Positions 31,849 through 49,504 of a DNA stretch of 58,464 bases are shown one piece after another. Made by a program: the position numbers and the translations under genes. Source of the DNA: Synergistales bacterium (GTDB lineage: Bacteria; Synergistota; Synergistia; Synergistales; Aminithiophilaceae); the NCBI GenBank assembly GCA_018433595.1, contig JAHDQY010000042.1, forward strand, positions 1-58,464, read 5' to 3'. Each line of letters opens with the position of its first letter. Position 1 is the stretch's first letter. The notes under the pieces were generated by a model. The model saw only the letters and a list, made by a program, of their open reading frames with translations. It had not been told where the DNA came from and searched no databases.

Positions 31849-34374
31849 ATGAGCACCTTTTCGGGCCTCGAAATGGGAAGACGGGCCATGAACTACTACC
31901 GCCTCGGCATGGAGACGGCAGGGCATAACATCGCCAACGCCGATGTCGAGGGCTATTCGAGGCAGCGCGTCGAGGCGTCGACGACGGATCCCTTCACCGA
32001 CCCCGGCCTGAGCCGCCCCTGGCTGCCGGGTCAGGTCGGGACGGGCGTCAAAGTCGATGCCATCGTGCGCCTCCGTGACGCCTTCCTCGACGCCCAGTAT
32101 GTCGAGGAGACGACGCTTCAGGGCTACTGGGAGCGCATCGAACAGGCCCTGCGGCACGCGGAGGTTTTCGTCAACGAACCTCTCGTCAACGAAAACGGCG
32201 GAACTCTCAAGACGGCCCTGGACAGCTTCTGGGCCAACATGCAGGAGCTCTCCAAACGCCCCGACAGCACCGCCGTCCGAGACGCCCTCCTGGAAGAGAC
32301 GCGGAGCCTCACCGTCTTCCTGGACCAACTGGCCACCAACTACAGCCAGTACCGCGACTCCCTCAATCAGGACCTCGAGATGAAGGTCAAAGAGGCCAAT
32401 ACCTATATCGACCAGATCGCCGCCCTCAACGTCAAGATCAAGAAGATCAAGGGAGTCGGCGGCAACCCCAATGACCTTCTGGACCGACGCGACCTTCTCG
32501 TGGAGAAGCTGGCCGGCCTTGCCGATATCACCGTCTCCTCGTCGGCCTACGACCTCGACGGCGACTTCAAGATCGACCTCAACGGCAAGCTTCTCGTCCA
32601 GGGCGATCAGACCCGACACCTCGTCCTTGCCTCCGTCGGCGGCAACAGCGGCTACTACGATGTTCAGGTCGAGGACAACACCTTCGATTACGTCGACAAC
32701 CCCGACGTCCTCACCATCGGCTTCAGCCAGGCTACGGGAGAGGCCGTCCATGACGTCTTCGTCCGCCGCATCGCCACCGAGACGGCCTGGAAGATCGGTC
32801 AGGCCGCCGACCCCGCGACGGGACTGGGGCGCATCAAACCTCAGAGCGCCGACGAGGCCCTGGGCATCAAGGGCAACTTTTCCCTTCAGGTGGGCAGCTC
32901 GGGGACGCGCGTCTCTTCCGTTGCCCAGAAGACGGGCGGCGTCGACGGTGTCGTCCTGGGCAGCCCCGGGGTGGGGGAGCCGACGGAATACGGCTTCCGC
33001 GTCGCCTGGGATGACAAGGACCGTATCGTCAACGTCGTCTGGAACGCCGGCACGAATCGCTGGGACATCTCCGACAACGCCGGCAACGCGGCCGCCTCGG
33101 CAGGGACGGACCTCACCGTCGGCGACCTCCAGTCCTTTTTCGCCTCCGGCTATCCCGGCCTCACCGCCGGAAGCGACGGCACGCATTTTTCCCTCTCTTC
33201 CGACGACAGCCACCTGATCTCCCTGACGGACATCAAGGGCGATCTTCTCTCGGACAGGCTCAAGATGGCCAACGGAGCTCCCATCGTCGCCATCGAAGTC
33301 ACCGAAGCGGACAGCCTCGTGACGATCCGCAACAAGATCAACAGCGCCTACGGAGCCGAAGGCGGTCCGGAAGATCCCGAAGAGTGGCTTGTCGCCTCCG
33401 TTGCCGAAATGGCCGACGGCACCTTCTCCCTCGTTCTCGAAAGCCAGGTCGTCGGCGAGGCCGCCAGGATCAACGTCATGGGCGACGAGCAGGGAAGCCT
33501 CTATGTCGCCCAGCGCCTGGGCCTCGTTGCGGGAGGCCCCGACGGCGGCTCCGCGGCGGTGCTCACGGAATCCCGGGACGCTCTCGTCACCGTCGACAAC
33601 TTCACCTTTCTCTCGGCCGAGAACAATTTCGGCAAGGCCCGTCTCATCACCGCCGCCAACGGCTACCGGGCCGATACGCTCCAGGAGGTCGTGCCGGGAG
33701 TCCATTTCCACATCAACGGCGTCGGCAGGGCTTCGGCCGTCATCCGCCATGCCGTCAAGGGCGGCCAGATCTCCGGCATCATGACGGCCCGCGATGACTA
33801 CCTATTGAGCCACCTGGCGAGCTTCGACGAAATGGCCTACGCTCTCGCCCTGGAGATGAACGCCGTCCATTACGCCGGACATGGCACGGGAACGAACTCC
33901 GACGTGACGGGCACGGCCTTTTTCGACCCCATCACCACGCGGTGGGGTGCGGCGACGAAACTCGACGTCAACGGGGCCCTTTTCGAGGACTCGACTCTCA
34001 TCGCCGCCTCCGGCGGCGACGGGACGGGCCACACCCTCGGCGTCGGTGACGGTAGCAACGCCCTCCGCATGGCCCAGCTCAAGCAGGCGCCCGTCTTGGA
34101 AAATGAGAGCGCCAGTTTCGACGAATTCTACGAGGCGTTCCTCGCCTCCCTCGGAACCCAGGGACAGCGCGCCCGGACTATGTCCGCCAATCAGAAAGCC
34201 CTCACCGGGCAGATCGACGCTCAGCGCCAGTCCGTCATGGGCGTCAATATCGACGAAGAGATGATGGACATTCTCAAGTTCCAGCAGGCCTTCAACGCCA
34301 TGGCGCGGCACATGACCACCATCGACGAGATGCTGGACCGGCTCATCAACGGCATGGGCCGAGTCGGCCTGTAG
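31849..34374 (+). CDS. flgK: Flagellar hook-associated protein 1, long FlgK
   Basis: FlgK is 841 aa, against roughly 550 in E. coli. The N-terminus has the family block METAGHNIANADVEGYSRQRVE and the C-terminus has GVNIDEEMMDILKFQQAFNAMARHM in part. These coiled ends form the hook-filament junction. The extra length is in the middle, including a flagellin-IN-like unit near residues 480-560 (VTEADSLVTIRNKINSA, then LYVAQRLGL). It follows flgN by 15 bases. Confidence 0.93.
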   Translation: MSTFSGLEMGRRAMNYYRLGMETAGHNIANADVEGYSRQRVEASTTDPFTDPGLSRPWLPGQVGTGVKVDAIVRLRDAFLDAQYVEETTLQGYWERIEQALRHAEVFVNEPLVNENGGTLKTALDSFWANMQELSKRPDSTAVRDALLEETRSLTVFLDQLATNYSQYRDSLNQDLEMKVKEANTYIDQIAALNVKIKKIKGVGGNPNDLLDRRDLLVEKLAGLADITVSSSAYDLDGDFKIDLNGKLLVQGDQTRHLVLASVGGNSGYYDVQVEDNTFDYVDNPDVLTIGFSQATGEAVHDVFVRRIATETAWKIGQAADPATGLGRIKPQSADEALGIKGNFSLQVGSSGTRVSSVAQKTGGVDGVVLGSPGVGEPTEYGFRVAWDDKDRIVNVVWNAGTNRWDISDNAGNAAASAGTDLTVGDLQSFFASGYPGLTAGSDGTHFSLSSDDSHLISLTDIKGDLLSDRLKMANGAPIVAIEVTEADSLVTIRNKINSAYGAEGGPEDPEEWLVASVAEMADGTFSLVLESQVVGEAARINVMGDEQGSLYVAQRLGLVAGGPDGGSAAVLTESRDALVTVDNFTFLSAENNFGKARLITAANGYRADTLQEVVPGVHFHINGVGRASAVIRHAVKGGQISGIMTARDDYLLSHLASFDEMAYALALEMNAVHYAGHGTGTNSDVTGTAFFDPITTRWGAATKLDVNGALFEDSTLIAASGGDGTGHTLGVGDGSNALRMAQLKQAPVLENESASFDEFYEAFLASLGTQGQRARTMSANQKALTGQIDAQRQSVMGVNIDEEMMDILKFQQAFNAMARHMTTIDEMLDRLINGMGRVGL

Positions 34375-34389
34375 GGGAGGGAACCGCCC

Positions 34390-37300
34390 ATGGCCAACCG
34401 CGTCACCAACAGCATGATGCACAATCTCTTCCTCGGCGACATGCATACGAACCTTCAGCGCCTTCTCGACCAGCAGCGCCAGATCACGACGGGCAAGAAA
34501 TTCAGCGCCCCTTCGGACAACCCTGTCGACGTCGTCCGCCAGGTGGCCCTGGAGACGACCCTGCGGGAAAACGTCCAGTACCGGCGCAATATGGACGACG
34601 CTCTCACCTGGCTGAAAAACAGCGAGACGGCCCTGAACCAGATTACCGACGTCACCCAGCGGATCCGCGAACTGGTCATCAAGGCCGGCAACGGCTCTTA
34701 CAAGGCCGACACTGACATGGCTGCCATCGCCCGGGAAGTGGAGGAACTCAAAGAGGAGCTCCGCAACACGGCCAACTACTCCGTCGAGGGCCGCTACCTC
34801 CTGGCCGGCCTTGCCACAGGCAAGCCCCCCTTCATCCTCGGTACCGACGGTCAGGTCGCCTATGTCGGCAACGACGGCAAGGTGCAGTACGAGATGGAGC
34901 GGGGCGTCGTCGGAAACGTCTCCCTCAACGGGCGGGAGGTCTTTCCCGTCGTCCACCGGGCCTACAGCATCACCAGCGTCGAAGTTCCCTCGGGCTTCAC
35001 CTGGCAGGGTCGGGACGAGATCATCCAGATCCGCGTCGGCGACCGCACCGTCAAGGTCCGCATTCCCGAACGGGGTTGGACCGATAACGACTTTTCGACC
35101 GTCACCGATGGCGCTGCTTGCAACCCCGATTACAACTGGTTCCGCGACCCGGGCGAGATGGATGGCTACAGCCTCGACGACATCGCCGGACTCATCAGCG
35201 ACTCCCTCGAAATGGGTGACGTCGGGCGCCTCGTCACCGTCGAAGTTCTCAAGGACGAAGCCGCCGGAACTCAGCGGCTCCAGATCCGCAGCCACACCGG
35301 CGAGCCCGTATCTCTCACTACCTGGCAGGAGACGGACCCCCAGGCCATGAACCAGATGATCGAAGTCGGCGCCATCGACGACTCGGTACCGGGTTTCTCT
35401 CTGGCCGACGCCGGAACCCTGACTTTTATCGTCGGCGAGGAGGGTAAACCCGTCACCGTCGACCTCGCCGCAGGAAGCAGCCTCGAAGCCATCCGGGCCA
35501 AGATCGACCTTGTCGACGGCCTCAACGCCCGCATCGAAGGGGCCGGCACGGCCTCGGCCCGGCTCCTCGTCATCGCCGAAACGGCGGGCGAGCCGATCTC
35601 CCTCAGCGCCGCCGAGGGGGCCACGGAAATCTTCCCGACCAGCGCCGCCTCGGAACCGATCCACAAGGCCTACGACCTGAGTCACATCGACCTCATGTCC
35701 CGCCTCGGCATGGGGACCTCGGTTCAGTCCGTCGAGTTCGCCTCGGGCTCCGACGTCGCCACGGGCCTGGGTGCGGATAACGCTATTCACTGGTACCTGG
35801 AAAGCGGTGGGAAAAAGGCCGAGCTTCTCATCAACTCCGGCGCCCCCCTCACCCTCGATCAGCTGGCCAACCAGCTTCGCGCCGTTGCCGGCGAATGGCT
35901 CGACGTGGTCGTCCAGACCGACGCAGGAGACACCGGCTCCCCCTCCGCCGGCGATGACGCGGAAGGGCCGACCCAGCGCCTGGTCCTTCGCGCCCGCGAC
36001 GGCGGCGCCGTCAACGTCGTCGATCTTTCGCCGGATAAGGGCGTCAACGGCACTCTTGCCCAGCGGATGGGACTTTCGACGGCCCTTCAGGGCACCTCGG
36101 GCGGCGTCTTCCCCGTCGGCGACGACCTCGATCCCCGCATGCCCGGCTACATGACCGTCACCGTCGGAGAGAAGCAGTACACCGTCAGTCTCTTCCCGGA
36201 AGACGTCCGCGTCGATCCCTCCGACCCCGCCTCGGCCATCGACGTCGCCAAGGTCGCCCGGCAGATCCAGAAACAGGTGGGGAAGGGGGCCGACGGCAAC
36301 TACCTTGTCCAGTACAAAGAGACCACCACCGGCGTCTCCTTCTACGCCTCCACCGGCGAGCCGCTGCGCTTCGTCGACCGCCCCTTCGGCGACCCCGCCT
36401 TCAGCGACTTCAGCGCCGGCGTCGCCCGCTCCCTGGGCATCAGCGCCGGCATCGCGACGACCGTCGATGAGGACCTTGCCGTCGACGCGGGCAGCTCCGG
36501 CTCCATCCGCATCGAATCGAGCGGCCGGGCCATCGACATCCCCGTTGCCGAAGGCGACACCCTCAAAGAGATCGCCGGCAAGATCAGAAAATATGCCGGC
36601 ACCTGGCTTGATGTCGCTTATGTCGACCCCGATCTGAGCGCTTCTCCGAGCCAGGTCTCCCTTACGCTGGCAGCCAAGGACGGCTCGCCCCTGACGATCT
36701 ACGACGATACGCCCGCCCAGGCCGGCGGCGCCAACGCCGCTGAAGCCTTCGGCGTCAGCACCGTCGTCCGGGGTCCCGATCTCTCGTCGGTGACGGTCGA
36801 CCTCTCGACGAACCATACCATGACCTTCACCGTCGCCGGCTACGAACACACCATCGACCTCCGCCAGCTCGATCTCGACGGCAACAGCCAGCTCAACGCG
36901 ACCGAACTGGCCAAACTGCCCGGTCTCATCAACTCTCGCTTCCAGGGCCAGGACATCGACGCCCGCGTCGCCGCCGACGGCAGTCTCATCCTCTCGTCGC
37001 CCAGAGGCTATGATTTCACCGTCCAGTGTGACGCCGCAGGACTTGTCTTCGACCCCGCCACGACGGGGAAAAGCCCCGAAGTCAGCGCCCAGGCGGCCAA
37101 CAGTCCCTACGGCCAGACGGTGACCGTCCGCAGCGGCCCCGACAAGAAGGACACCGACTTCTTCGGGCTCCTCGACCAGATCTCCGACGCCATGTGCAGC
37201 GAAGACAGGGAGGGACTCTCTCACAGTCTCCTCGGCGAGGTCGATGGCTTCGTCGACAACCTCCTCCGCAGCCGCACTCAGGTCGGTGCCCTCACTCGCC

Positions 37301-37488
37301 GCTACGAGACGAGCCAGGCCCGCCTCGTGACGAATCACACCAACACCACCGATCTCTACAGCAAGATCGCCGACACCGACCTGGCCGAGGCTTCGGCCAA
37401 CCTCATGATGGCTCAGGCCGTCTATCAGGCCAGCCTTGCCGTCATCGCACGTATCGTCCAGCCGACGCTGGTCGATTTCCTCCGTTGA
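34390..37488 (+). CDS. flgL: Flagellar hook-associated protein 3, giant FlgL
   Basis: FlgL is 1032 aa, over three times E. coli FlgL (317 aa). Residues 1-150 are a normal FlgL/flagellin N-terminal coil (LQRLLDQQRQITTGKKFSAPSDNP) and the last 100 residues are the matching C-terminal coil ending VQPTLVDFLR. Between them lie about six degenerate modules (residues 209-309, 341-405, 464-546, 586-663, 704-773, 809-878), each a beta strand pair, a helix and an LxLxxxxGxPL-type end, like flagellin IN motifs. Module 6 holds an EF-hand-like loop at residues 828-839. It sits between flgK and fliW. Confidence 0.9.
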   Translation: MANRVTNSMMHNLFLGDMHTNLQRLLDQQRQITTGKKFSAPSDNPVDVVRQVALETTLRENVQYRRNMDDALTWLKNSETALNQITDVTQRIRELVIKAGNGSYKADTDMAAIAREVEELKEELRNTANYSVEGRYLLAGLATGKPPFILGTDGQVAYVGNDGKVQYEMERGVVGNVSLNGREVFPVVHRAYSITSVEVPSGFTWQGRDEIIQIRVGDRTVKVRIPERGWTDNDFSTVTDGAACNPDYNWFRDPGEMDGYSLDDIAGLISDSLEMGDVGRLVTVEVLKDEAAGTQRLQIRSHTGEPVSLTTWQETDPQAMNQMIEVGAIDDSVPGFSLADAGTLTFIVGEEGKPVTVDLAAGSSLEAIRAKIDLVDGLNARIEGAGTASARLLVIAETAGEPISLSAAEGATEIFPTSAASEPIHKAYDLSHIDLMSRLGMGTSVQSVEFASGSDVATGLGADNAIHWYLESGGKKAELLINSGAPLTLDQLANQLRAVAGEWLDVVVQTDAGDTGSPSAGDDAEGPTQRLVLRARDGGAVNVVDLSPDKGVNGTLAQRMGLSTALQGTSGGVFPVGDDLDPRMPGYMTVTVGEKQYTVSLFPEDVRVDPSDPASAIDVAKVARQIQKQVGKGADGNYLVQYKETTTGVSFYASTGEPLRFVDRPFGDPAFSDFSAGVARSLGISAGIATTVDEDLAVDAGSSGSIRIESSGRAIDIPVAEGDTLKEIAGKIRKYAGTWLDVAYVDPDLSASPSQVSLTLAAKDGSPLTIYDDTPAQAGGANAAEAFGVSTVVRGPDLSSVTVDLSTNHTMTFTVAGYEHTIDLRQLDLDGNSQLNATELAKLPGLINSRFQGQDIDARVAADGSLILSSPRGYDFTVQCDAAGLVFDPATTGKSPEVSAQAANSPYGQTVTVRSGPDKKDTDFFGLLDQISDAMCSEDREGLSHSLLGEVDGFVDNLLRSRTQVGALTRRYETSQARLVTNHTNTTDLYSKIADTDLAEASANLMMAQAVYQASLAVIARIVQPTLVDFLR
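35014..37023 (+). repeat. Six degenerate IN-like modules within flgL
   Basis: Read at protein level, the modules share an opening strand (TVxVGxxxxTV), a helix (SLEAIRAKI, TLDQLANQL, VAKVARQI, TLKEIAGKI) and a closing strand with a G-x-P/A-L/V turn (HTGEPVSL, TAGEPISL, DGGAVNVV, STGEPLRF, DGSPLTIY). Nucleotide identity between modules is low, so this is an old repeat array. Module borders are approximate. Confidence 0.6.
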
Positions 37489-37503
37489 CCGAGGTGATGT
37501 GAG

Positions 37504-37974
37504 TTGCAGAGCTTCAAGACCGCCCGATTCGGCGATCTCCGCTACGGCGAGGACGATATCCTGCGCTTTCCCAGGGGCATCCCCGGTTTCGAGGCCCACA
37601 CCCGCTGGGTCCTGGCGGGCGAGGACGATCACCCCGTCAAATGGCTCCAGAGTCTCGACGACGGAGAGGTGGCCCTACCCGTCACGGCGCCGGGGCTCTT
37701 TTTCCCCGACTACCATGTCAACCTCCCCAAGGGGGAGCTTGATGTTCTCGAACTCGACGACGAAGCAGACATGGCTCTCCTCGTCGTCGTCGCCGTCCCC
37801 GACGGCGACCCCTTGAGGGCAACGATCAACCTGAGGGCTCCCATCGTCGTCAACGGCAGGAAACGCCTGGCCCGGCAGGTCATCTCCCTTGACGAACAGT
37901 ACGAGGTGAGGCATCTCCTCTTCGCACGGGAGCAAAAAGAGGCTGCCGCCGGCCCTCTGGCCGAGGAGAAGTAG
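37504..37974 (+). CDS. fliW: Flagellar assembly factor FliW
   Basis: FliW is 156 aa from a TTG start after GAGGTGA. It has the family core ILRFPRGIPGFE, then NLRAPIVVNGRKRLARQVI near residues 112-131. FliW binds newly made flagellin or CsrA, releasing CsrA from flagellin mRNA when flagellin is low. It lies one base before csrA, the standard FliW-CsrA pair. Confidence 0.94.
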   Translation: MQSFKTARFGDLRYGEDDILRFPRGIPGFEAHTRWVLAGEDDHPVKWLQSLDDGEVALPVTAPGLFFPDYHVNLPKGELDVLELDDEADMALLVVVAVPDGDPLRATINLRAPIVVNGRKRLARQVISLDEQYEVRHLLFAREQKEAAAGPLAEEK

Positions 37975-37975
37975 C

Positions 37976-38236
37976 GTGCTGGTCCTTGCCCGCAAAGCCG
38001 GAGAAAAAATCCTCATCGGCTCCGATATCGAGGTCGAGGTCCTGGAGGTCCGCGGAGATGCCGTCAAGCTCGGCATCAATGCCCCTCGTGAGGTGCCGGT
38101 CTGGCGGGGCGAGCTGCTCCTTGCCGTGGCCGACGCCAACCGGGAGGCCCTCCGTCCGGCTGCCCTTCCCCTCGGGGAGGTCGAACGCCTCTTCGAAAAA
38201 CTGGCCGAAGAAAAGAAGAAGGAGGAAGGCCGTTGA
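37976..38236 (+). CDS. csrA: Translational regulator CsrA
   Basis: CsrA is 86 aa, starting MLVLARKAGEKILIG, with the RNA-binding arginine region PREVPVWRGE. The C-terminal tail (about residues 60-86, rich in E and K) is longer than in E. coli CsrA (61 aa). Such extensions are typical where FliW is the antagonist. The GTG start follows fliW by one base. Its expected target is the flagellin leader about 2.8 kb downstream. Confidence 0.94.
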   Translation: MLVLARKAGEKILIGSDIEVEVLEVRGDAVKLGINAPREVPVWRGELLLAVADANREALRPAALPLGEVERLFEKLAEEKKKEEGR

Positions 38237-40956
38237 AAGAGACGCCCCAGCTTTTGGCAAGCAACATGGAAATCCTCCGCCGAATCCAGCCCGGCCTGGC
38301 ACGGCGTCTTAAGGAGCGCATCGACGCCGTCGAAAGCCTCCCCGAGCCTGTCATCAAAGAGACGCCCAAGGGCCGCTGGATCTCGGGACTCACGGAAAAG
38401 CCCTTCTTTGAACCCGCCCAGGAGAAGACGACGAAAAAGCGCAAGGGCTCGGCCTTTATCGTTTTCGGCGTCGGCTCGCCACCTTACCTTTTCCAGGTCT
38501 TCCGCTCCCTCTCCCGGGAGGCCCTGGCCGTCATCGTCGTCGAGCCCGACCTCGATCTCCTGCTGAGGACTTTGAGCCTTACCTCCGTCTACCGCGCCCT
38601 CCCTCAGGGGTGCCGCCTCACCTTCATCGCCGAAGACGATCGCGCCCTCATCGACGAAGCTCTGGCACACAACGTCGTCCCCCTGGGCATCTTCCCCTTT
38701 GCCCGGGCCGAGACGATCGTCCATCGGGGTCTCGCCGAATCCCGGGGCGACATGGCCCTCTTCGAGGGAGTGAAACGGGAAATCCTCTACCGACTCAGCC
38801 AACTGGGCAATTCGCCGGAGGATACCCTTCTCGGCGTGCGTCACGGTGCCCTCAACGTCCTTCCCATTCTCAGAAGCCCTTCCCTGGACAAGCTGAAGGA
38901 AATGGTCGGCGGTCGTCCTCTCGTCAGCGTCGCCTCGGGCCCCTCGCTGGAAAAGAACGTCCACCTCCTCAAGGGGATGGAAGACCGCTGCGTCATCGTC
39001 GCCTGCGACACCGTCCTGCTCCCGCTGCTGAGACGGGGCATCCGGCCTCACGTCGTGACGACCATCGAACGGCCCCTCAAGACCTACGAGACCTGGCTTG
39101 TCCCCGTCCTCAGAGAGTTTCCCGAGGAGTGCAGAAACATCCTCCTTCTCTCCCAGTCCGTCAGCTACCCCGCCACGGCGGGACGCTGGCCGGGGCCCAA
39201 GATCGTCATCGGCAAGCTCGATAGCCCCGCCGATCGCTGGCTTGCCGTGGAGGTCCTGGGCAAGGCGGTCTTCCTCTCGGGCATGTCTGTCGCCCACATG
39301 GGGTTGACCCTGGGATTCGCCCTCGAATCCCAGGCCATCGCGCTTATCGGCCAGGACCTCGCCTACGAGGGGGAAGCCACCCATGTCGGCGGTGCCGTGA
39401 CCGACGACATCAGCCAAAAGGAGCGTTCCTACGCCAGGACCACCGTTCCCGGCTCGCTGACGGAGACGGTTGAAACGCACCACATGTGGCACTACTTCCT
39501 CCAAATCTTCGAGCGCTTCATCAGCTGCTATGCCAAAGAGGGGCAGGTCCACGACTGCACCGAAGGAGGAGCCCGCATCGAGGGGGCCGTCACTGAGCCT
39601 TTTCGGGTCTTTCTGGACCGCGAGACGAAGGATCCGGTGTCTCCGGCCTGGGACCCGGAGGCCCTCAGGCCCCTTGCGTTCACAGGAGAAATGTCAGAGG
39701 CCCTTGCCGTCCGCCTCGAAGAGGCCTTCCGTGCACTCGACGGCTGCGACGAAAGCCTCGATGAAATGGCGAAACTCGTCGAGCGCGCCGTCTCTCCGGC
39801 TCTCACTCCGGCCCGTCGCCGGGATCTGGCCTTTCGGGTCGCTGAACTCCTTGACGATATCCACGGCCGCAACGAAGTGCTTGCCTTCATCGGCCAGAGC
39901 TACACCTATCTGGCCGGGGCCTCCCTGGCCGAGACGCGTTTCATGGAGACCGTCGAGCAGGTCCGCTCCTGGGGCGATCTCCATTGCGAAATCATCGACT
40001 CCCACCGGGCCAACGTCGCCTTCCTGCGCCAGTGGCTCCGCTACGTGGAGCGCCTCGCCTCGCCGGAACTTCGGGAAGACCTTCTCCTGCTCGAAAGGAT
40101 CAAAGGCTCTGATGAAGCCCAGGAAAAGATCACTCGGCTTCGCTCAGCCATCGATCAGGAAAAAGGTTTCGATCCCCTCGGCCGGGAAGCACTTCTTTTC
40201 TCGGAACTTCTCTGCCGCTTTGACCCGGCCGAGCCGGGGTGGAGCAACGAGGCACGCTGGATCGCCGCCCGCTTCTTCCTCCTCCAGGGGCGGGCTTTCG
40301 ACGGCTCCCGCCTCATGAGGCGGGTCTACGAGGAGCTTGAGGGTCAGGAGCTCCCCCGGGAAGCGATCGACGCCTTCTTCCTCGACTGGGCCGAGATTGA
40401 GGCCTCTCACGACCTTTGCGAGGAGCCCCGCTACCAGACGGCCCTCACGCTGCTTGAAAACGTTCAAGCCGAAGGGAAGAGCAGAGAGGCCGTCGAGACG
40501 CTTCGCAGCAAGGTCCTCCGCTTGCAGCGGGAGTACTTCCGCCGCCATTCCCTCTTCGGCACCTCGCAAGACCTGAAGCTTCGTCTGCTCCTGAAGCGCA
40601 ACGGAGCCGAAGAGGCCCTGAGCGCGAAGGACCTTCCCCGGGCTCTACTCCTCATCGAATCGATGATCGACGAAGGCCTGGAAGCCTTCCCCGGAACCGT
40701 CCTGCCTCACCTGGACTGGCTGGCCAAAACGGCCCTCGACTGCCGCGAGGCCGCCGACCCCGCCATCGTCGGCACCTCAAGGGAGATCCTCCGCCGTCTC
40801 TGGCGGGAACAGGCCCGCCTCGCCGAGGCCGGTTTCGCCTGGCCCGCCCAAATCGCCGACTATCTTCGCGAGGAGGGGCTACAGGTCGTGCTGGAAACGG
40901 CCGAAAACAGAAAAGAGCAGTCGTCCGAGGAGGTGAGGCCTCGCCAGGGTGCTTGA
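38233..40956 (+). CDS. maf: Motility-associated factor glycosyltransferase (Maf, MptE-like)
   Basis: The protein is 907 aa and belongs to the Maf/DUF115 family, with the MptE-like core around residues 215-400 (GRPLVSVASGPSLEKN, VIVACDTVLLPLLRRGIRPH, ALIGQDLAY). Maf proteins transfer nonulosonic acids such as pseudaminic acid to flagellin. This one is followed by flagellin and a Pse pathway. The roughly 450 residues after the core are mostly helical and longer than in most Maf proteins. The TTG start overlaps the csrA stop and has AAGGAGG upstream. Confidence 0.87.
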   Translation: MKETPQLLASNMEILRRIQPGLARRLKERIDAVESLPEPVIKETPKGRWISGLTEKPFFEPAQEKTTKKRKGSAFIVFGVGSPPYLFQVFRSLSREALAVIVVEPDLDLLLRTLSLTSVYRALPQGCRLTFIAEDDRALIDEALAHNVVPLGIFPFARAETIVHRGLAESRGDMALFEGVKREILYRLSQLGNSPEDTLLGVRHGALNVLPILRSPSLDKLKEMVGGRPLVSVASGPSLEKNVHLLKGMEDRCVIVACDTVLLPLLRRGIRPHVVTTIERPLKTYETWLVPVLREFPEECRNILLLSQSVSYPATAGRWPGPKIVIGKLDSPADRWLAVEVLGKAVFLSGMSVAHMGLTLGFALESQAIALIGQDLAYEGEATHVGGAVTDDISQKERSYARTTVPGSLTETVETHHMWHYFLQIFERFISCYAKEGQVHDCTEGGARIEGAVTEPFRVFLDRETKDPVSPAWDPEALRPLAFTGEMSEALAVRLEEAFRALDGCDESLDEMAKLVERAVSPALTPARRRDLAFRVAELLDDIHGRNEVLAFIGQSYTYLAGASLAETRFMETVEQVRSWGDLHCEIIDSHRANVAFLRQWLRYVERLASPELREDLLLLERIKGSDEAQEKITRLRSAIDQEKGFDPLGREALLFSELLCRFDPAEPGWSNEARWIAARFFLLQGRAFDGSRLMRRVYEELEGQELPREAIDAFFLDWAEIEASHDLCEEPRYQTALTLLENVQAEGKSREAVETLRSKVLRLQREYFRRHSLFGTSQDLKLRLLLKRNGAEEALSAKDLPRALLLIESMIDEGLEAFPGTVLPHLDWLAKTALDCREAADPAIVGTSREILRRLWREQARLAEAGFAWPAQIADYLREEGLQVVLETAENRKEQSSEEVRPRQGA
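40880..40907 (+). promoter_or_regulatory. Candidate sigma28 promoter for flagellin inside maf
   Basis: TACA (40880-40883, one mismatch to TAAA, within CTACAG) and GCCGAAAA (40900-40907, one mismatch to GCCGATAA) are 16 bases apart, the same spacing as the flgM promoter. A start near 40915 would give a leader of about 130 bases before flagellin. Confidence 0.45.
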
Positions 40957-41042: not shown

Positions 41043-43397
41043 ATGCGCGTGTACCATAACGTACCGGCCCTTTTCGCCTACAACTCCGTAAGCGCCACCA
41101 ACAACTCCCTGCAGAAGTCGATCCAGAAGCTCTCTACGGGGCTCCGGATCAACTCCGCCGCCGACGACGCCGCTGGCCTTGCCATCTCCGAGAAGATGCG
41201 CGCCCAGGTCCGCGGCCTCGACCAGGCCACGAACAACGCCCAGGACGGCATCTCCATGATCCAGACCGCCGAGGGCGCCCTCAACGAGACCCACTCCATC
41301 CTCCAGCGCATGCGCGAGCTCTCCGTCCAGTCGGCCAACGACACCCTCACCAGCCAGGACCGGGGCTACATCCAGCTCGAGGTGGACCAGCTCAAGGAAG
41401 AGATCTCCCGCATCGCCACGACGACCCAGTTCAACAAAAAGAAGCTTCTCGATGGCAGCGCCGCCGTTCTCTGGTCTTCCGACAGGCTCGAGACGAAGGC
41501 CCTCATCCGCGGCGCCCTCCGTCAGATCGACCAGTTCGGCCAGAAGTCGGCCGCCGAGGGCAACTACAAGATCAGCGTCATCGCCGATCCCGGCCAGGCC
41601 GAAATCCAGAAGAGCGACATCTTCAAGATCAAGCACGAGAATGTCATCATGGACGTCACCAAGAACGAGGCCAAGGGTGTCCAGGCCATCCGCGTCGACA
41701 ACCTCCCCGCCGGTACCTACAACATCACCAGCGTCTCCGGGGCGGCTGCTGCGGCGGTTTTTGAAGTGGTCCAGCAGTTCGGCACGACTGCGGCTCTGAC
41801 TCTCGGTACCGCCTCGACGGATGGCGTGGCCGGAGCTTCCATCTACCTGGAAGTCATCGCTCCCCCCAGCACCGGCACGAATACCGTCACTTTCAGGGTC
41901 ATCGCCAACCTGCTCCTGACCGACGGCAAGGTGGTGACCAGGGAAAACAGCAACCTCGTCGTCGGAACCGCTGCAGTCGGCCTCAGCTCCCTGGGGCTCA
42001 ACTCCGGCAACACGATCAGGCTTTCCGCCGCCGGCGCCGCTGCCAACTACGCCATCGGCAACAAGGTCGTTCTCCAGCACGTGAGCGTCGGCGCTACGAC
42101 GACCGCGTGGGGTGCGACCGCCGCCGCGAACGTCCATGTCCAGATCTCCGGAACGACCAACCCCGACTGGCCCGGCCATTGGGGCGCTGCGGCCGGACAG
42201 AATCTGGGGGACAGGACGTTCTCCCTTAACGCCGCCGCCGTGGCCGAGAACGACGTCCATTTCCGCAACTTCTACCTCAACACGGCCAACGGCACCCTCT
42301 ATGAGTCGGACCTCGTCCTCCAGCTCAACAGCAAGTTCACCAACACCAGTGCCGTCCTTGCCGGATTCGAGGCCGCCTATGTCGGCCAGGTGGCCAAGGG
42401 CGACGTCCAGCTCCGCGACCTCGAGAAGTTCTGGGATGCCAACGGCCGCTTCATGATCGAAGATTCCCAGGTGCTCACTCTTACCCAGGGCAACGGCAAG
42501 CAGACCCGGGTCACCCTCAATTCCACCGACACCCTGCGGGACGTCGAGTTCAAGCTCAACAACGCCATCGCCTTCGAACTCGGCCAGGCCAAGTACCTCG
42601 ACAGCCATACCGACCGCTTCGTCGACTTCATCGAGGAGGAGACGCCCAACTCTCCCGAATCGGTCGAAGGCACCTTCGTCATCCGCTCGGCTGTCGCCGG
42701 CAAGGCCGGGACGTTGAACTTCGCCGGCGACGAAGACGTCATCAAGGCCCTGAGCCTCAACGTCATCCAGGATTCGACGGAGAGCCAGTACCGCGTCAGC
42801 GTCACCGACGCCCACGATGGAAGCACCGTCGCCTCCAACGTGAAGGTGACGGGCAACATGCTCTACGGCATCGTCCACGCCAACGTCGACGTCGAGTTCG
42901 ACGCCATGGCCAACGTCAAGCTCGAGTGGTCCGATAGCGCCAAGAGCTTCCGCCTCTCCCGCGACGCGGACAACATCTACGAGACGGTCGTTCACCTCGC
43001 TGACAACACCACCGTCTTCCAGATCGGAGCCAACGAGAAGGAAGACATGGGCATCGATATCGGCGACATGGGCGCCAAGGCCCTCGGCGTCAGCAACGTC
43101 CTCGTCACCGACCGCGAGTCGGCGGCCCGCTCCATCACCGTCATCGACAACGCCATCGACCGCGTCTCCAGCCAGCGCGCCAAGCTCGGCGCCTACCAGA
43201 ACCGGTTGGAGCACACCATCAACAACCTCACCGTGGCCAGCACCAACCTCACTGCCGCCGAGAGCCGCATCCGCGATCTCGACATGGCCAAGGAAATGAT
43301 GAACTTCACCAAGCTCAACATTCTCATGCAGGCCGGTAACGCCATGCTGGGCCAGGCCAATCAGCTGCCCCAGAATGTCCTGCAGCTCCTCCGCTAA
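41043..43397 (+). CDS. fliC: Flagellin, long form
   Basis: The protein is 784 aa. The conserved N-terminal D0/D1 region (about 1-145) has [30 protein letters not shown] in part, and the C-terminal region (about 685-784) ends [17 protein letters not shown]. The long middle is variable and surface exposed, with one IN-like segment near residues 475-570. Asn/Ser/Thr-rich loops there could carry nonulosonic acid. It is the only flagellin in the window. Its leader has a predicted CsrA-binding hairpin. Confidence 0.95.
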
Positions 43398-43925: not shown

Positions 43926-44648
43926 GTGGCAGGCAATGTGGTTTTCATCACTCAGGCCCGGAGCGGTTCAACTCGCCTGCCAGGCAAGGTGCTTAAGAAA
44001 GTCCAGGGCCGTTCCCTGCTGGAATGGTTTCTCGCCAGGGCGCGCAGGACCGTCTGCACCTCTCTCTGCGTGGCGACGACTACGAATGAGGCCGATGACG
44101 ACCTCGCCGCTCTTGTCCGAGAGGAAGGTGATGTGCACCTGACGCGGGGCAGTGAGGCGGATGTCTTGGGCCGCTATGTCCAGGCTGCCTCGGAGACGGA
44201 GGCCGATGTGATTGTCCGCGTCACCTCCGATTGCCCCGTTTTCGACTGGCACCTTATCGACAGGGCCGTCGAAATCCTTGCCCGTACAGGAGCCGATGCG
44301 GTACGGACCGGCTACAGGGCCTATCCCCTCGGGCTTGATGTCGAGGTCTACAGCAGGCAGATTCTGGAACGGATGGAGCGTGAGGCCAAAGAACAGGCTG
44401 AACGGGAGCATGTGGGCCCCTATCTTTTTCAGAATCACCCCGATCTTTTCGGTATCCGATGGCTTGTCCCCGATGTCGGTGAGTTGCCTTGGCCCGACTG
44501 CCGCCTCACGCTGGATTATCCCGAAGACCTGGCCTTCGTCGAGGCGCTTTTCGCCGCCCTCGGCCCTCTTGCCGAGGCTGAGGATTACAGGCGCTACCTT
44601 CTTGTTCACCCCGAGGTTGCTGCCATCAACGGTCATCTCCTGCGTTAA
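43926..44648 (+). CDS. SpsF-type cytidylyltransferase, probable CMP-nonulosonate synthase
   Basis: This 240-residue protein has the nucleotidyltransferase opening VFITQARSGSTRLPGKVLKK, then RGSEADVLGRYVQAA and VRVTSDCPVFD. It resembles SpsF and acylneuraminate cytidylyltransferases rather than the usual PseF. In this cluster the step still missing is CMP activation of the nonulosonic acid, so that is the inferred role. The start is GTG at 43926 with AAGGGGAT upstream. Confidence 0.72.
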   Translation: MAGNVVFITQARSGSTRLPGKVLKKVQGRSLLEWFLARARRTVCTSLCVATTTNEADDDLAALVREEGDVHLTRGSEADVLGRYVQAASETEADVIVRVTSDCPVFDWHLIDRAVEILARTGADAVRTGYRAYPLGLDVEVYSRQILERMEREAKEQAEREHVGPYLFQNHPDLFGIRWLVPDVGELPWPDCRLTLDYPEDLAFVEALFAALGPLAEAEDYRRYLLVHPEVAAINGHLLR

Positions 44649-44718
44649 CCCTTTTCCCCGATTACCCCCTTATCTCTCTTCCCCCTTCTTCCGATACAAA
44701 AGGCAGCACAACCATTGA

Positions 44719-45726
<1,008 letters not shown>

Positions 45727-45730
45727 AGGC

Positions 45731-46786
45731 TTGAGCAGTAGAGACGTTGTCATCAAGAGAGCTTTCCTTGAAGGAGATCACCGTATCCTTGGCTCGGGAC
45801 ATCCCTGTTTCATCATCGCCGAGGTGGGGGCCAACCATAACCGCTCCCTCGACCTGGCCAAGGCTCACATCGACGCCGCCGTGGCGGCCGGAGCCGACGC
45901 CGTCAAGTTCCAGATCTACAGCGCCGAAGGGCTTTATTCACGCAGGACGCCGCGGCACTCGGGCTACGAGAAGGATCTCTTCTCCCTCATCAAGGAGATT
46001 GAGACGCCCCGTTCCTGGCTGCCCGAGCTGAGGCGCTACTGCGACGAGCGGAAGATTCTCTTTTTCGCCACGCCCTTCGACTTTCAGGCCGTCGATGAAC
46101 TCGATGCCGTGAGCGACCTCTTCAAGATCGCCTCCTTCGAGCTCGTCGATCTGCCGCTGATCCGCCACTGCGCCTCGAAGGGAAAGCCCATGATCCTCTC
46201 CACCGGCCTGGCGACGATGGAGGAGATCGAAGATGCCTACCTCGCCTGTCGGGAGGCCGGCAACGAGCAGGTGGTCTTCTTGCAGTGCGCCTCCGTCTAT
46301 CCCGCACCGGCTCACATTATCAACCTGCAGGCCATGGAGACGATTTCACGGGCTTTCAGCGTTCCTTCAGGGCTATCCGATCACACCGAGGGTATCCATG
46401 TCTCCCTCGCCGCCGTCGCCATGGGCGCTTCCGTGATCGAGAAGCACTTCACTCTCGACCGGACGATGGAGGGCCCCGATCACCCCTTTGCCATCGAACC
46501 CGACGAGCTGGCCGAACTGGTCCGTTGCGTCCGCGAGATCGAGTCGGCCATGGGCGACGGGCGCAAGCTGGGGCCCTCACCGGAAGAGGCGGAATTCTAC
46601 GAGAAGGCCCGGCGGAGCCTTCATGCCGCCTGTGACATCCCTGCGGGGACGGTCCTGACCGAGGCCATGCTCGTCTGCAAGCGCCCCGGCTACGGCATCC
46701 GCCCCAAATTCCTGCCTCTTATCCTGGGGCGGCCTGTGAAGGTGGATGTCTCGGCTGACCGGTGGATCACTTGGGAGATGGTTTAG
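45731..46786 (+). CDS. pseI: Pseudaminic acid synthase PseI
   Basis: The protein is 351 aa from TTG at 45731, 7 bases after GGAGGG. An upstream TTG at 45716 overlaps pseB and is less likely. The NeuB TIM-barrel has PCFIIAEVGANHNRSLDLAK, GLSDHTEGIHVSLAAVAMGA and EKHFTLDRTMEGPDHPFA. A SAF (antifreeze-like) domain ends the protein. It condenses phosphoenolpyruvate with the hexose from PseG. NeuB-family members differ in substrate, but the context favours Pse. Confidence 0.9.
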   Translation: MSSRDVVIKRAFLEGDHRILGSGHPCFIIAEVGANHNRSLDLAKAHIDAAVAAGADAVKFQIYSAEGLYSRRTPRHSGYEKDLFSLIKEIETPRSWLPELRRYCDERKILFFATPFDFQAVDELDAVSDLFKIASFELVDLPLIRHCASKGKPMILSTGLATMEEIEDAYLACREAGNEQVVFLQCASVYPAPAHIINLQAMETISRAFSVPSGLSDHTEGIHVSLAAVAMGASVIEKHFTLDRTMEGPDHPFAIEPDELAELVRCVREIESAMGDGRKLGPSPEEAEFYEKARRSLHAACDIPAGTVLTEAMLVCKRPGYGIRPKFLPLILGRPVKVDVSADRWITWEMV

Positions 46787-47341
46787 GTGGTGAACCTGTC
46801 GTTTCATCCCATTGCCGAAGAAACGGAGGAAATGTGGCGGCTTGTTCTCGAATGGCGAAACTCGCCGCCGGTCCGTTTTCAGATGCTGGACCAGTCTCCC
46901 ATTGACTGGGAGACGCACTGTCGGTGGATCGGTAGCCAGAAAGAGCCTTCACCGAACAGTTTAGCTCGCGTTGCTTACGGCGGTGGAAGGCCCTTGGGCG
47001 TCATCTCGCTGAACCGGATCGATCGAAAGCAGAGCCATTCTGATTGGGGAATGTATATCGGTGTCCCTGAGCTTAGAGGCCGCGGTTTCGGGAACGCGAT
47101 GGTCGATGAAATCCTCCGGTGGGGCTTTGACGAGGAGCGGCTGGCTAGACTCTACACTTCCGTTCTCTCTGATAACGTGGCTGCTTTGGGTCTTTACCTG
47201 AAGAAGGGTTTTCGTTTGGAGGGGAATTGGAGAAATCATGTGATGGCCCGTGACGGGCGGTATCTGGATCTTTTATGGTTGGGCCTTCAGAGAGCGGAGT
47301 GGTCGGAGAAAAGGGGTCAAACGCCTTCGTCGCCGCAGTGA
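46787..47341 (+). CDS. pseH: PseH-like GNAT acetyltransferase
   Basis: This 184-residue GNAT protein has [46 protein letters not shown] (acetyl-CoA motif) and NVAALGLYLKKGFRLEG in short form. In the pathway PseH acetylates the 4-amino group after PseC. The start is GTG at 46787, directly at the pseI stop, with a second GTG one codon later. Confidence 0.85.
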   Translation: MVNLSFHPIAEETEEMWRLVLEWRNSPPVRFQMLDQSPIDWETHCRWIGSQKEPSPNSLARVAYGGGRPLGVISLNRIDRKQSHSDWGMYIGVPELRGRGFGNAMVDEILRWGFDEERLARLYTSVLSDNVAALGLYLKKGFRLEGNWRNHVMARDGRYLDLLWLGLQRAEWSEKRGQTPSSPQ

Positions 47342-47375
47342 GAGCAATCTTGATCCATTGGAGTGATGACGTTTA

Positions 47376-48380
47376 ATGAGTCTTCAGGTCTTCACCTACG
47401 GAGGCCCAGGCATCGGCGGGGGGCATGTCTCGCGCTGTCTCGCCCTGGCGTCGGCACTGGATGAGCTCGGCTATTCCATCTCCTTCGCCATCAATCCCGG
47501 CGGGGTGGGGCTCCTTGGGGCGAGAGCGGAGGGAGCCTTCGTCAGCGACAAACTCTTTGTCTCCGATCCCGCCGGTCTTCCGGGGCTGATGGGAGTGCTG
47601 AACGGTTGTGATTTCGCCGTCGTCGACTCCTACGCGGCTTCTCCGGAATGGCTCGCCTCTCTGGCCTCCTGTCGTCCTCTCGTCGTGATCGACGATCTGG
47701 CTGACCGGCCCGTCGGACCTCACGTGGCGGTTCTGCTCAATCACAACCTTGGGGCCGATAACCTGCGCTACGATCTGGGACCTTCGTCGCTGGCCCTCCT
47801 GGGGCCTGACTACGCCCTTCTGCGGCCGGAGGTCTCTTTCTGGTCACGCCGGCTTGGGGAGGGCGAGGTCTTGCAGGAGGAGGCCGTCTTTTTCGTGGCC
47901 GGGGCCTCCGACGTGGCCGGGGTGACGGAAAGGGTCATCGACTGGTGGTGCCCGCGATGGCCTCAGCTGAAGGCCGTCGTGGGGCCTCTGACGGATGAGG
48001 AGAGCCGTTTCCGCTGTCGGGCCAGGGCAGAGGGAAAGACAAACGTGACCCTTCTGGAGGCCCCCGGGAACTTCCTGGAGGAGATGGCCCGGTCTGAGCG
48101 TGTGATCTGCACCTCCAGCGTCACGGCCTACGAGGCGCTGGCCCTGCGCAAGCCCCTGGCCGTCTTTCAGGTGGCCTCCAATCAGGAGGGGATCGGCGTG
48201 GCCATCGAAGAGCTTCGTCTGGGGTGCAATCTGGGGCGCTTCAGTTCCTTCGGCGCTGAAGCGGTGGAAGAGTATCTCGCGGCGCCCTCTCTGGTGCCGC
48301 GGCCTCTGGTGAACCCCGAGGGAGCCAAGGCGGCGGCCTCGGCTCTGGCGGCGTTTTTCGAGAGAGGAGAACGACGATGA
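47376..48380 (+). CDS. pseG: UDP-sugar hydrolase PseG
   Basis: PseG is 334 aa with a GT-B-like fold. Motifs are GIGGGHVSRCLALASAL near the start and VVIDDLADRP and ERVICTSSVTAYEALALRKP later. It removes UDP from the diacetamido hexose to give the substrate of PseI. It overlaps pseC by 4 bases. Confidence 0.88.
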   Translation: MSLQVFTYGGPGIGGGHVSRCLALASALDELGYSISFAINPGGVGLLGARAEGAFVSDKLFVSDPAGLPGLMGVLNGCDFAVVDSYAASPEWLASLASCRPLVVIDDLADRPVGPHVAVLLNHNLGADNLRYDLGPSSLALLGPDYALLRPEVSFWSRRLGEGEVLQEEAVFFVAGASDVAGVTERVIDWWCPRWPQLKAVVGPLTDEESRFRCRARAEGKTNVTLLEAPGNFLEEMARSERVICTSSVTAYEALALRKPLAVFQVASNQEGIGVAIEELRLGCNLGRFSSFGAEAVEEYLAAPSLVPRPLVNPEGAKAAASALAAFFERGERR

Positions 48381-49504
48381 CGTCCTATCTGCCTTACGGG
48401 CATCAGTGGATCGATGACGACGATGTGGCCGCCGTGGCCGCGGTCATGCGCGGCGACTGGCTGACTCAGGGGCCTGCCGTCGAGGTTTTCGAGAAGTCCG
48501 TGGCCGATTATGTCGGCGTCGCTCACGCCGTGGCCTTCTGCAACGGCACGGCGGCCCTCCACGGAGCCTATTACGCGGCCGGCGTGGGCGAGGATGACGA
48601 GGTGATCGTTCCGCCCCTTACCTTCGCCGCTACGGCCAATGCCGCCTGCTACCTGGGCGCCCTGCCGGTCTTCGCCGATATTGCGCCCGAGACTTTCTGC
48701 CTTGATCCGGTTGAAGTTGCCCGAAAGGTTACGGCGAAGACGAAGGTGGTTGCTCCCGTAAGCTACGCCGGTTACCCTGCCGATGTGGAAGGATGCCGAC
48801 GGGCCGCTCCAGGAGCCGTCGTGGTCGAAGACGGTTGTCACGCCCTGGGAGGTGATCGGAGAGGGTGCAAGATCGGTGCCGAGGCGGACATGACCGTTTT
48901 CAGCTTCCACCCTGTCAAGCACGTGACGACAGGCGAGGGGGGGATGGTCGTTACTGACGACGAGCTCTTTGCCCGCAGACTTCGTCTCTTTCGCAGCCAC
49001 GGCATCACGAAAGAGCCCGGCGAGATGGAAGCGAAGGACGAGGGTCCCTGGTACTGCGAGATGGTTGACCTGGGTTACAATTACCGGATGACCGAACTCC
49101 AGGCCGCTCTGGGCCGAAGCCAGATGAAGAAACTTGATGCCTTCGTGGCCCGCCGCCGGGAGTTGGCCTGTCTCTACGATGAGGCCATGGCCGAGCTGGA
49201 GGGAGTCACACTTCCGCCCCGCCATGAGGGGCATGCCTACCATCTCTACCCGATCCAGGTCGACGGCTCCCGGCGGAGGGCTCTTTTCGAAGGGCTCCGG
49301 GCGGCTTCCATCGGTGTTCAGGTCCACTACGTTCCCGTCCACTTCCATCCCTATTACCGGCGTCGCTTTGGCTGGTCCGAGGGGGATTTCCCCTGTACTG
49401 AAGCCCTTTACCGGCGGGAGATCTCGTTGCCCCTTTTTCCCGCCATGGACGACGGCGATGTGGACCGCGTCGTTGCCGAGCTGTTTCGGTTTTTGAGAGG
49501 CTGA
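48377..49504 (+). CDS. pseC: UDP-4-keto sugar aminotransferase PseC
   Basis: PseC is 375 aa of the DegT/DnrJ/EryC1 PLP family. The PLP lysine is K181 in FSFHPVKHVTTGEGG. EDGCHALGG and NYRMTELQAALGRSQ are further family motifs. It aminates the PseB product at C4. It is the last gene of the pathway cluster, and the order F-like, B, I, H, G, C covers every step from UDP-GlcNAc. Confidence 0.92.
   Translation: MTSYLPYGHQWIDDDDVAAVAAVMRGDWLTQGPAVEVFEKSVADYVGVAHAVAFCNGTAALHGAYYAAGVGEDDEVIVPPLTFAATANAACYLGALPVFADIAPETFCLDPVEVARKVTAKTKVVAPVSYAGYPADVEGCRRAAPGAVVVEDGCHALGGDRRGCKIGAEADMTVFSFHPVKHVTTGEGGMVVTDDELFARRLRLFRSHGITKEPGEMEAKDEGPWYCEMVDLGYNYRMTELQAALGRSQMKKLDAFVARRRELACLYDEAMAELEGVTLPPRHEGHAYHLYPIQVDGSRRRALFEGLRAASIGVQVHYVPVHFHPYYRRRFGWSEGDFPCTEALYRREISLPLFPAMDDGDVDRVVAELFRFLRG

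Follow-up and report, generated by a model that had tools for sequence, protein, structure and literature searches.

The window, a 58,464-nucleotide stretch of DNA from a Synergistales bacterium, encodes a set of flagellar proteins on its forward strand. The gene flgL lies directly downstream of flgK, separated from its end at 34374 by 15 bases, a pairing that is the same in relatives, and is itself followed by fliW and a flagellin gene of 784 aa. The features are listed below, with the modules of the FlgL middle region numbered M1 to M6.

31849-34374, + strand: flgK, 841 aa, moderately enlarged, with about two predicted IN-like folds at roughly residues 380-463 and 479-544 (TIGR02492, 313.7 bits; model pLDDT 74.4)
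34390-37488, + strand: flgL, giant hook-filament junction protein, 1032 aa (TIGR02550, 248.5 bits; orthologues in ten families of the order)
34390-34944, + strand: FlgL N-terminal D0/D1 helices and hairpin, residues 1-185 (Flagellin_N at 13-142; model helices 7-34, 45-101 and 108-128)
35005-35337, + strand: M1, residues 206-316, conserved as the core (model, module-pair comparison, conservation)
35401-35628, + strand: M2, residues 338-413, the least conserved module, missing or doubled in some relatives, alone above the Pfam Flagellin_IN cut-off (Pfam, model, module-pair comparison, conservation)
35773-36036, + strand: M3, residues 462-549 (model, module-pair comparison; M3-M5 at 98.7-99.0% probability)
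36133-36396, + strand: M4, residues 582-669 (model, module-pair comparison)
36487-36717, + strand: M5, residues 700-776, with M2 nearest to the single FlgL module of the sister order (model, module-pair comparison)
36805-37041, + strand: M6, residues 806-884 (model, module-pair comparison)
36871-36906, + strand: EF-hand-like loop DLDGNSQLNATE within M6, residues 828-839, possible calcium site (pattern recurring at this position in about a third of 79 distinct FlgL)
37132-37485, + strand: FlgL C-terminal D1/D0 helices, residues 915-1032 (Flagellin_C at 950-1030; model helices 940-994 and 998-1031)
37504-37974, + strand: fliW (PF02623)
41043-43397, + strand: flagellin gene, 784 aa (Flagellin_N and Flagellin_C)

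The flgL frame starts with ATG and is unbroken, and its score against the curated FlgL equivalog TIGR02550 lies above the family cut-off of 127.2 bits; positions 1-190 of that profile align to the N-terminal part of the protein. Flagellin_N and Flagellin_C at the termini, together with the long terminal helices of the AlphaFold model, identify the D0/D1 core, in agreement with the original prediction of an FlgL with ordinary ends; judged from the alignment, residues from about 190 to 910 occupy the place of the small outer domain in ordinary FlgL. The same-genus relatives include Synergistota strain L-13. Differences from same-genus orthologues fall mainly at the third codon position, showing that flgL is a real coding sequence, and orthologues of the same length rule out a frameshift, fusion or assembly artefact as the origin of its size; a frameshifted insert here set against relatives of normal length was not seen within the order. 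The 1032-residue frame is thereby confirmed as an intact, conserved FlgL. A 1276-aa antisense frame spanning flgK and flgL (33802-37632, − strand) was rejected: it merely shadows the coding frame, which is GC-rich, and contains stops in three of the four orthologues tested.

The sizes originally given for FlgK and flagellin are correct. Comparison of the FlgK profile with itself found no self-repeats (best cross-match to FlgL, 38%), and with only about two IN-like folds in its model, the possibility that FlgK carries the same repeat array as FlgL was rejected. The flagellin gene is flanked, at 38233-40956 and 43926-49504, by a pseudaminic acid flagellar glycosylation set comprising a 907-aa PseD/Maf-like protein, a cytidylyltransferase-like gene, PseB, a NeuB/PseI-type synthase, PseH, a PseG-like protein and PseC.

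Modules of the FlgL middle region

At the level of sequence profiles and of a predicted structure, the FlgL middle region was confirmed to repeat one beta-beta-alpha-beta-beta-beta fold six times in diverged form. Comparison of the order-wide FlgL alignment with itself gave internal matches in the middle at 95-99% probability, such as residues 260-661 onto 487-878 (99%). When the modules were compared pairwise, 10 of the 15 pairs matched at more than 50% in at least one direction and all six modules were connected; besides M3-M5, the matches included M1-M3 (95.9%), M2-M5 (95%), M2-M6 (up to 87%), M1-M4 (83%) and M4-M5 (up to 71%), against a column-shuffled control in which 1 of 130 trials exceeded 6%. 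The other five pairs were weak in both directions and no DNA-level tandem repeats of module size were found in flgL, both of which indicate that the modules and their kinship are old.

The AlphaFold model, predicted as a monomer from a 45-sequence alignment (mean pLDDT 84.5, pTM 0.77), places the six units at residues 210-312, 342-409, 466-545, 586-665, 704-772 and 810-880. Judged by strand and helix order, the strand-strand-helix-further-strands arrangement of the Flagellin_IN/beta-grasp fold recurs six times, and the predicted module pattern fits the beta-grasp Flagellin IN (PF07196), a domain reported in FliD, FlgL and FlgK in 2007 (PMC1949818). Pfam Flagellin_IN exceeded its cut-off once in the 1032-aa protein, at residues 343-373 in M2 (24.1 bits versus 22.7), and matched 16 of 23 orthologues; M1 and M3-M6 score below it and are tied to M2 by profile-profile comparison. 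The FlgL array shares its fold pattern with the known domain and differs from it in comprising six divergent copies one after another, of which five in this protein score under the cut-off. The originally proposed set of six degenerate IN-like modules in an ordered fold was in this way borne out by the controlled profile matches and by a structure prediction in which the fold repeats, the resemblance to Pfam Flagellin_IN itself being significant for M2 and falling short for the other five. Pfam ubiquitin also gave weak matches in a few orthologues.

The EF-hand-like loop of M6 is suggestive only of a possible calcium site. EF-hand_5 matched 6 of the 23 orthologues, and over whole FlgL proteins calcium-loop patterns numbered 106 compared with 87 in shuffled sequences, not clearly above that control.

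Array architecture across Synergistota

A length survey of FlgL across the phylum, suggested alongside the original prediction, drew on 41 relatives, 66 loci with named records and 122 genomes. Complete frames in the order of the window, where orthologues span ten families, measured 890-1503 aa, plus one of 1787 aa, across about 50 named Synergistota loci and the whole-genome surveys; those in three genomes of the sister order measured 402-406 aa and matched TIGR02550 from end to end. About ten shorter frames of 177-664 aa were also present in the order of the window, including at least one cut by a contig end (G013) and one frame-broken MAG copy (L097). Four genomes (G063, G081, G086 and G094) each carry two giant FlgL genes.

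The modules are colinear from M1 to M6 in all complete FlgL of the phylum that were scanned, apart from cases in which a single module, or one pair, has been lost or duplicated; as the module HMMs were built from the same FlgL family, the departures from this order are the informative part. M2 is absent from three Acetomicrobium-type loci (L048, L049 and L068; FlgL 890-904 aa) and duplicated in another (L047; 1123 aa), and the M5-M6 pair is duplicated in L050/L072, L069, L077, L090 and L111 (1355-1389 aa). Among cultivable members, Acetomicrobium hydrogeniformans has five modules and Fretibacterium fastidiosum six. Other additional length is accounted for by the M1-M2 and M6-C linkers, and the loops between modules differ greatly in length.

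In L124, the one sister-order FlgL that was scanned, Flagellin_IN matches once, over positions 2-55 of 55, with a score of 21.3 bits, just under the cut-off. By profile, this domain is nearest to M5 (92.6%) and M2 (90.1%), with a reversed control at 9% or less. Because the sister order has a short FlgL with one such module, amplification of the ordinary FlgL outer domain would be the simplest reading of how the array arose. Ordinary FlgL likewise sets its outer domain between the two terminal helical regions of a D0/D1 core and differs in having none or one, there being no D2 in Bacillus cereus and one in Xanthomonas campestris (PMC6155364), versus six modules in the FlgL of the window.

FlgL size and a candidate junction collar

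We compared FlgL size with that of the other axial proteins. The sister order, with its normal FlgL, has flagellins of 789-841 aa, FliD of 782-792 aa, FlgK of 698 aa and FlgE-type hook proteins of 440-456 aa; in the order of the window the flagellin beside flgL has 756-1014 aa, FliD 481-1850 aa, FlgK 829-1528 aa and the FlgE-type proteins, chosen by family match and length, mostly 628-985 aa. Within this order the correlations with FlgL length, which come from few genomes and several tests and are uncorrected for relatedness, were strongest for FliD (rho 0.78 over 16 genomes; over nine family means rho 0.77, p 0.016, or 0.67, p 0.07, without family f3), followed by FlgE (rho 0.48), flagellin (rho 0.44, p 0.07, n 17) and FlgK (rho 0.29, p 0.06). 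A length coupling between FlgL and FlgK was rejected as weak overall and nil inside the larger group; of the original suggestion that FlgK had been co-enlarged, its greater size than in the sister order therefore stands and the correlation does not. These lengths suggest that FlgL size goes loosely with that of the hook and cap proteins rather than with flagellin size.

Two side observations concern these proteins. Giant FliD of 1535-1850 aa occurs in three rumen or gut Synergistaceae (G022, G036 and G005), several other families of the order having 481-627 aa, and two genomes (G008 and G017) encode an ordinary FlgE-like hook protein of 462-480 aa alongside enlarged ones of 636-786 aa.

By analogy with solved junctions, we give a probability of about 60% to the reading that the amplified D2 array is a functional junction collar, reinforcing the joint and docking hook-side and cap proteins. 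The D2 domain of FlgL would have begun as a single beta-grasp IN module and have been amplified, in the ancestor of one Synergistota order, into six modules in fixed succession. Some 11 copies of FlgL would form a single ring joining FlgK to the filament, as in the solved junction of 11 FlgK and 11 FlgL (PMC12221982), and their modules would form a thick collar around the joint at the filament base; with just 11 subunits, the array would be a local collar only. M1, the most conserved module, is probably packed onto the core or onto adjacent subunits, and the outermost position probably belongs to M2, which varies most and is the most dispensable. The collar would most likely stiffen the joint and offer a docking surface to the enlarged FlgE/FlgK side and to the FliD cap, its size following these partners rather than flagellin. 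Cap size alone would be insufficient as an explanation, since the sister order combines a FliD of 782-792 aa with normal FlgL. The outer-domain function of junction proteins has not been determined experimentally according to PMC6155364, and no experiments on any Synergistota flagellum or junction were found in the searched literature.

A stricter version is doubtful: across the order FlgE, FlgK/FlgL and FliD would have grown together, FlgL by multiplying one interface fold, with flagellin size evolving on its own, and the collar would be a size-matched gauge for docking between the hook and the cap.

It is unlikely that the array instead matches a thick filament, FlgL having followed the enlarged outer domains of flagellin so that the outer layer runs unbroken across the joint. 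Flagellins in this order are large, and giant flagellins, which resemble the array as an enlarged outer domain of an axial protein, give thick filaments elsewhere, with Synergistetes among the listed carriers (PMC6248924); they differ in forming a filament subunit in thousands of copies rather than a junction ring. Against this, the sister order shows that a large flagellin is possible without a large FlgL, FlgL in the window's own genus remains at 1014-1037 aa while flagellin spans 777-1014 aa, and the correlation between the two lengths is weak. The same observations contradict the earlier view that the outer domains of FlgL and flagellin had co-evolved.

Constraint, alternatives and precedents

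Conservation bears on the remaining alternatives. Identity to other families is 55% for M1, equal to that of the helical core (55%), 40-46% for M3-M6 and 27% for M2; in the most distant family, M1 reaches 44% against 30% for the N-terminal core. With M1 conserved like the core and third codon positions differing most, the profile is that expected, from sequence, of a structural element in which one module is variable and can be lost, and not of a variable adhesive face. The surface decoration or adhesive layer originally envisaged, an exposed structure binding surfaces or partner cells, is accordingly quite improbable: the array would be surface exposed, is acidic (pI 4.3) with Ser/Thr somewhat above the N-terminal core and adjoins the glycosylation genes, but no adhesin-type Pfam family matched FlgL or its 23 orthologues, most modules are conserved nearly as well as the core, which a variable surface layer would not be, and about 11 copies per flagellum would make a poor adhesive layer. 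Neutral growth, a tolerated module duplication drifting without a function of its own, could account for the loss and gain of M2, the duplicated M5-M6 pair and the variable loops, but is very unlikely given a module order kept across ten families and clearly constrained module sequences.

Campylobacter offers a parallel to the enlarged FlgL. The best structural match of the FlgL model is Campylobacter FlgL in the junction complex (PDB 9GSX, E 2.5e-15), and the C. jejuni protein, of 750 aa, has a 'bulky D2 domain' (PMC12221982, PMC5691160) situated close to the cap (PMC12221982). Among Campylobacter and related organisms FlgL of 750-950 residues occurs with extra hook domains and a diverged FlgK (PMC5691160), so that the single small variable domain originally taken as the norm for FlgL already had large exceptions. 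Both proteins combine ordinary ends with a greatly enlarged outer domain; the FlgL of the window is larger and has the fixed six-module architecture, and whole-chain superposition is poor (TM 0.29-0.39). As the inserts also show no sequence match, even by profile, the two enlargements are probably independent and convergent.

The fold, the FlgL protein and oversized FlgL are thus already known, and the giant FlgL is a genuine, heritable enlargement of a feature already known, which probably makes a bulkier collar around the joint rather than a new machine. No account was found in the searched literature of the row of six modules fixed in this order, of how modules were gained and lost in it, or of the sister order's form with a single module. 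Together these provide a clean natural series, from one module in the sister order to five, six, seven or eight in this one, for probing the role of the junction outer domain, and they set junction size apart from flagellin size, two things easily assumed to be linked.

The window's own genome also encodes, on another contig (C38; L054:4523-10375), a flagellin of 1950 aa whose ends are normal and whose middle, of 1700 residues, contains one weak IN match; similar frames of 1953-2073 aa occur in several relatives of the order.
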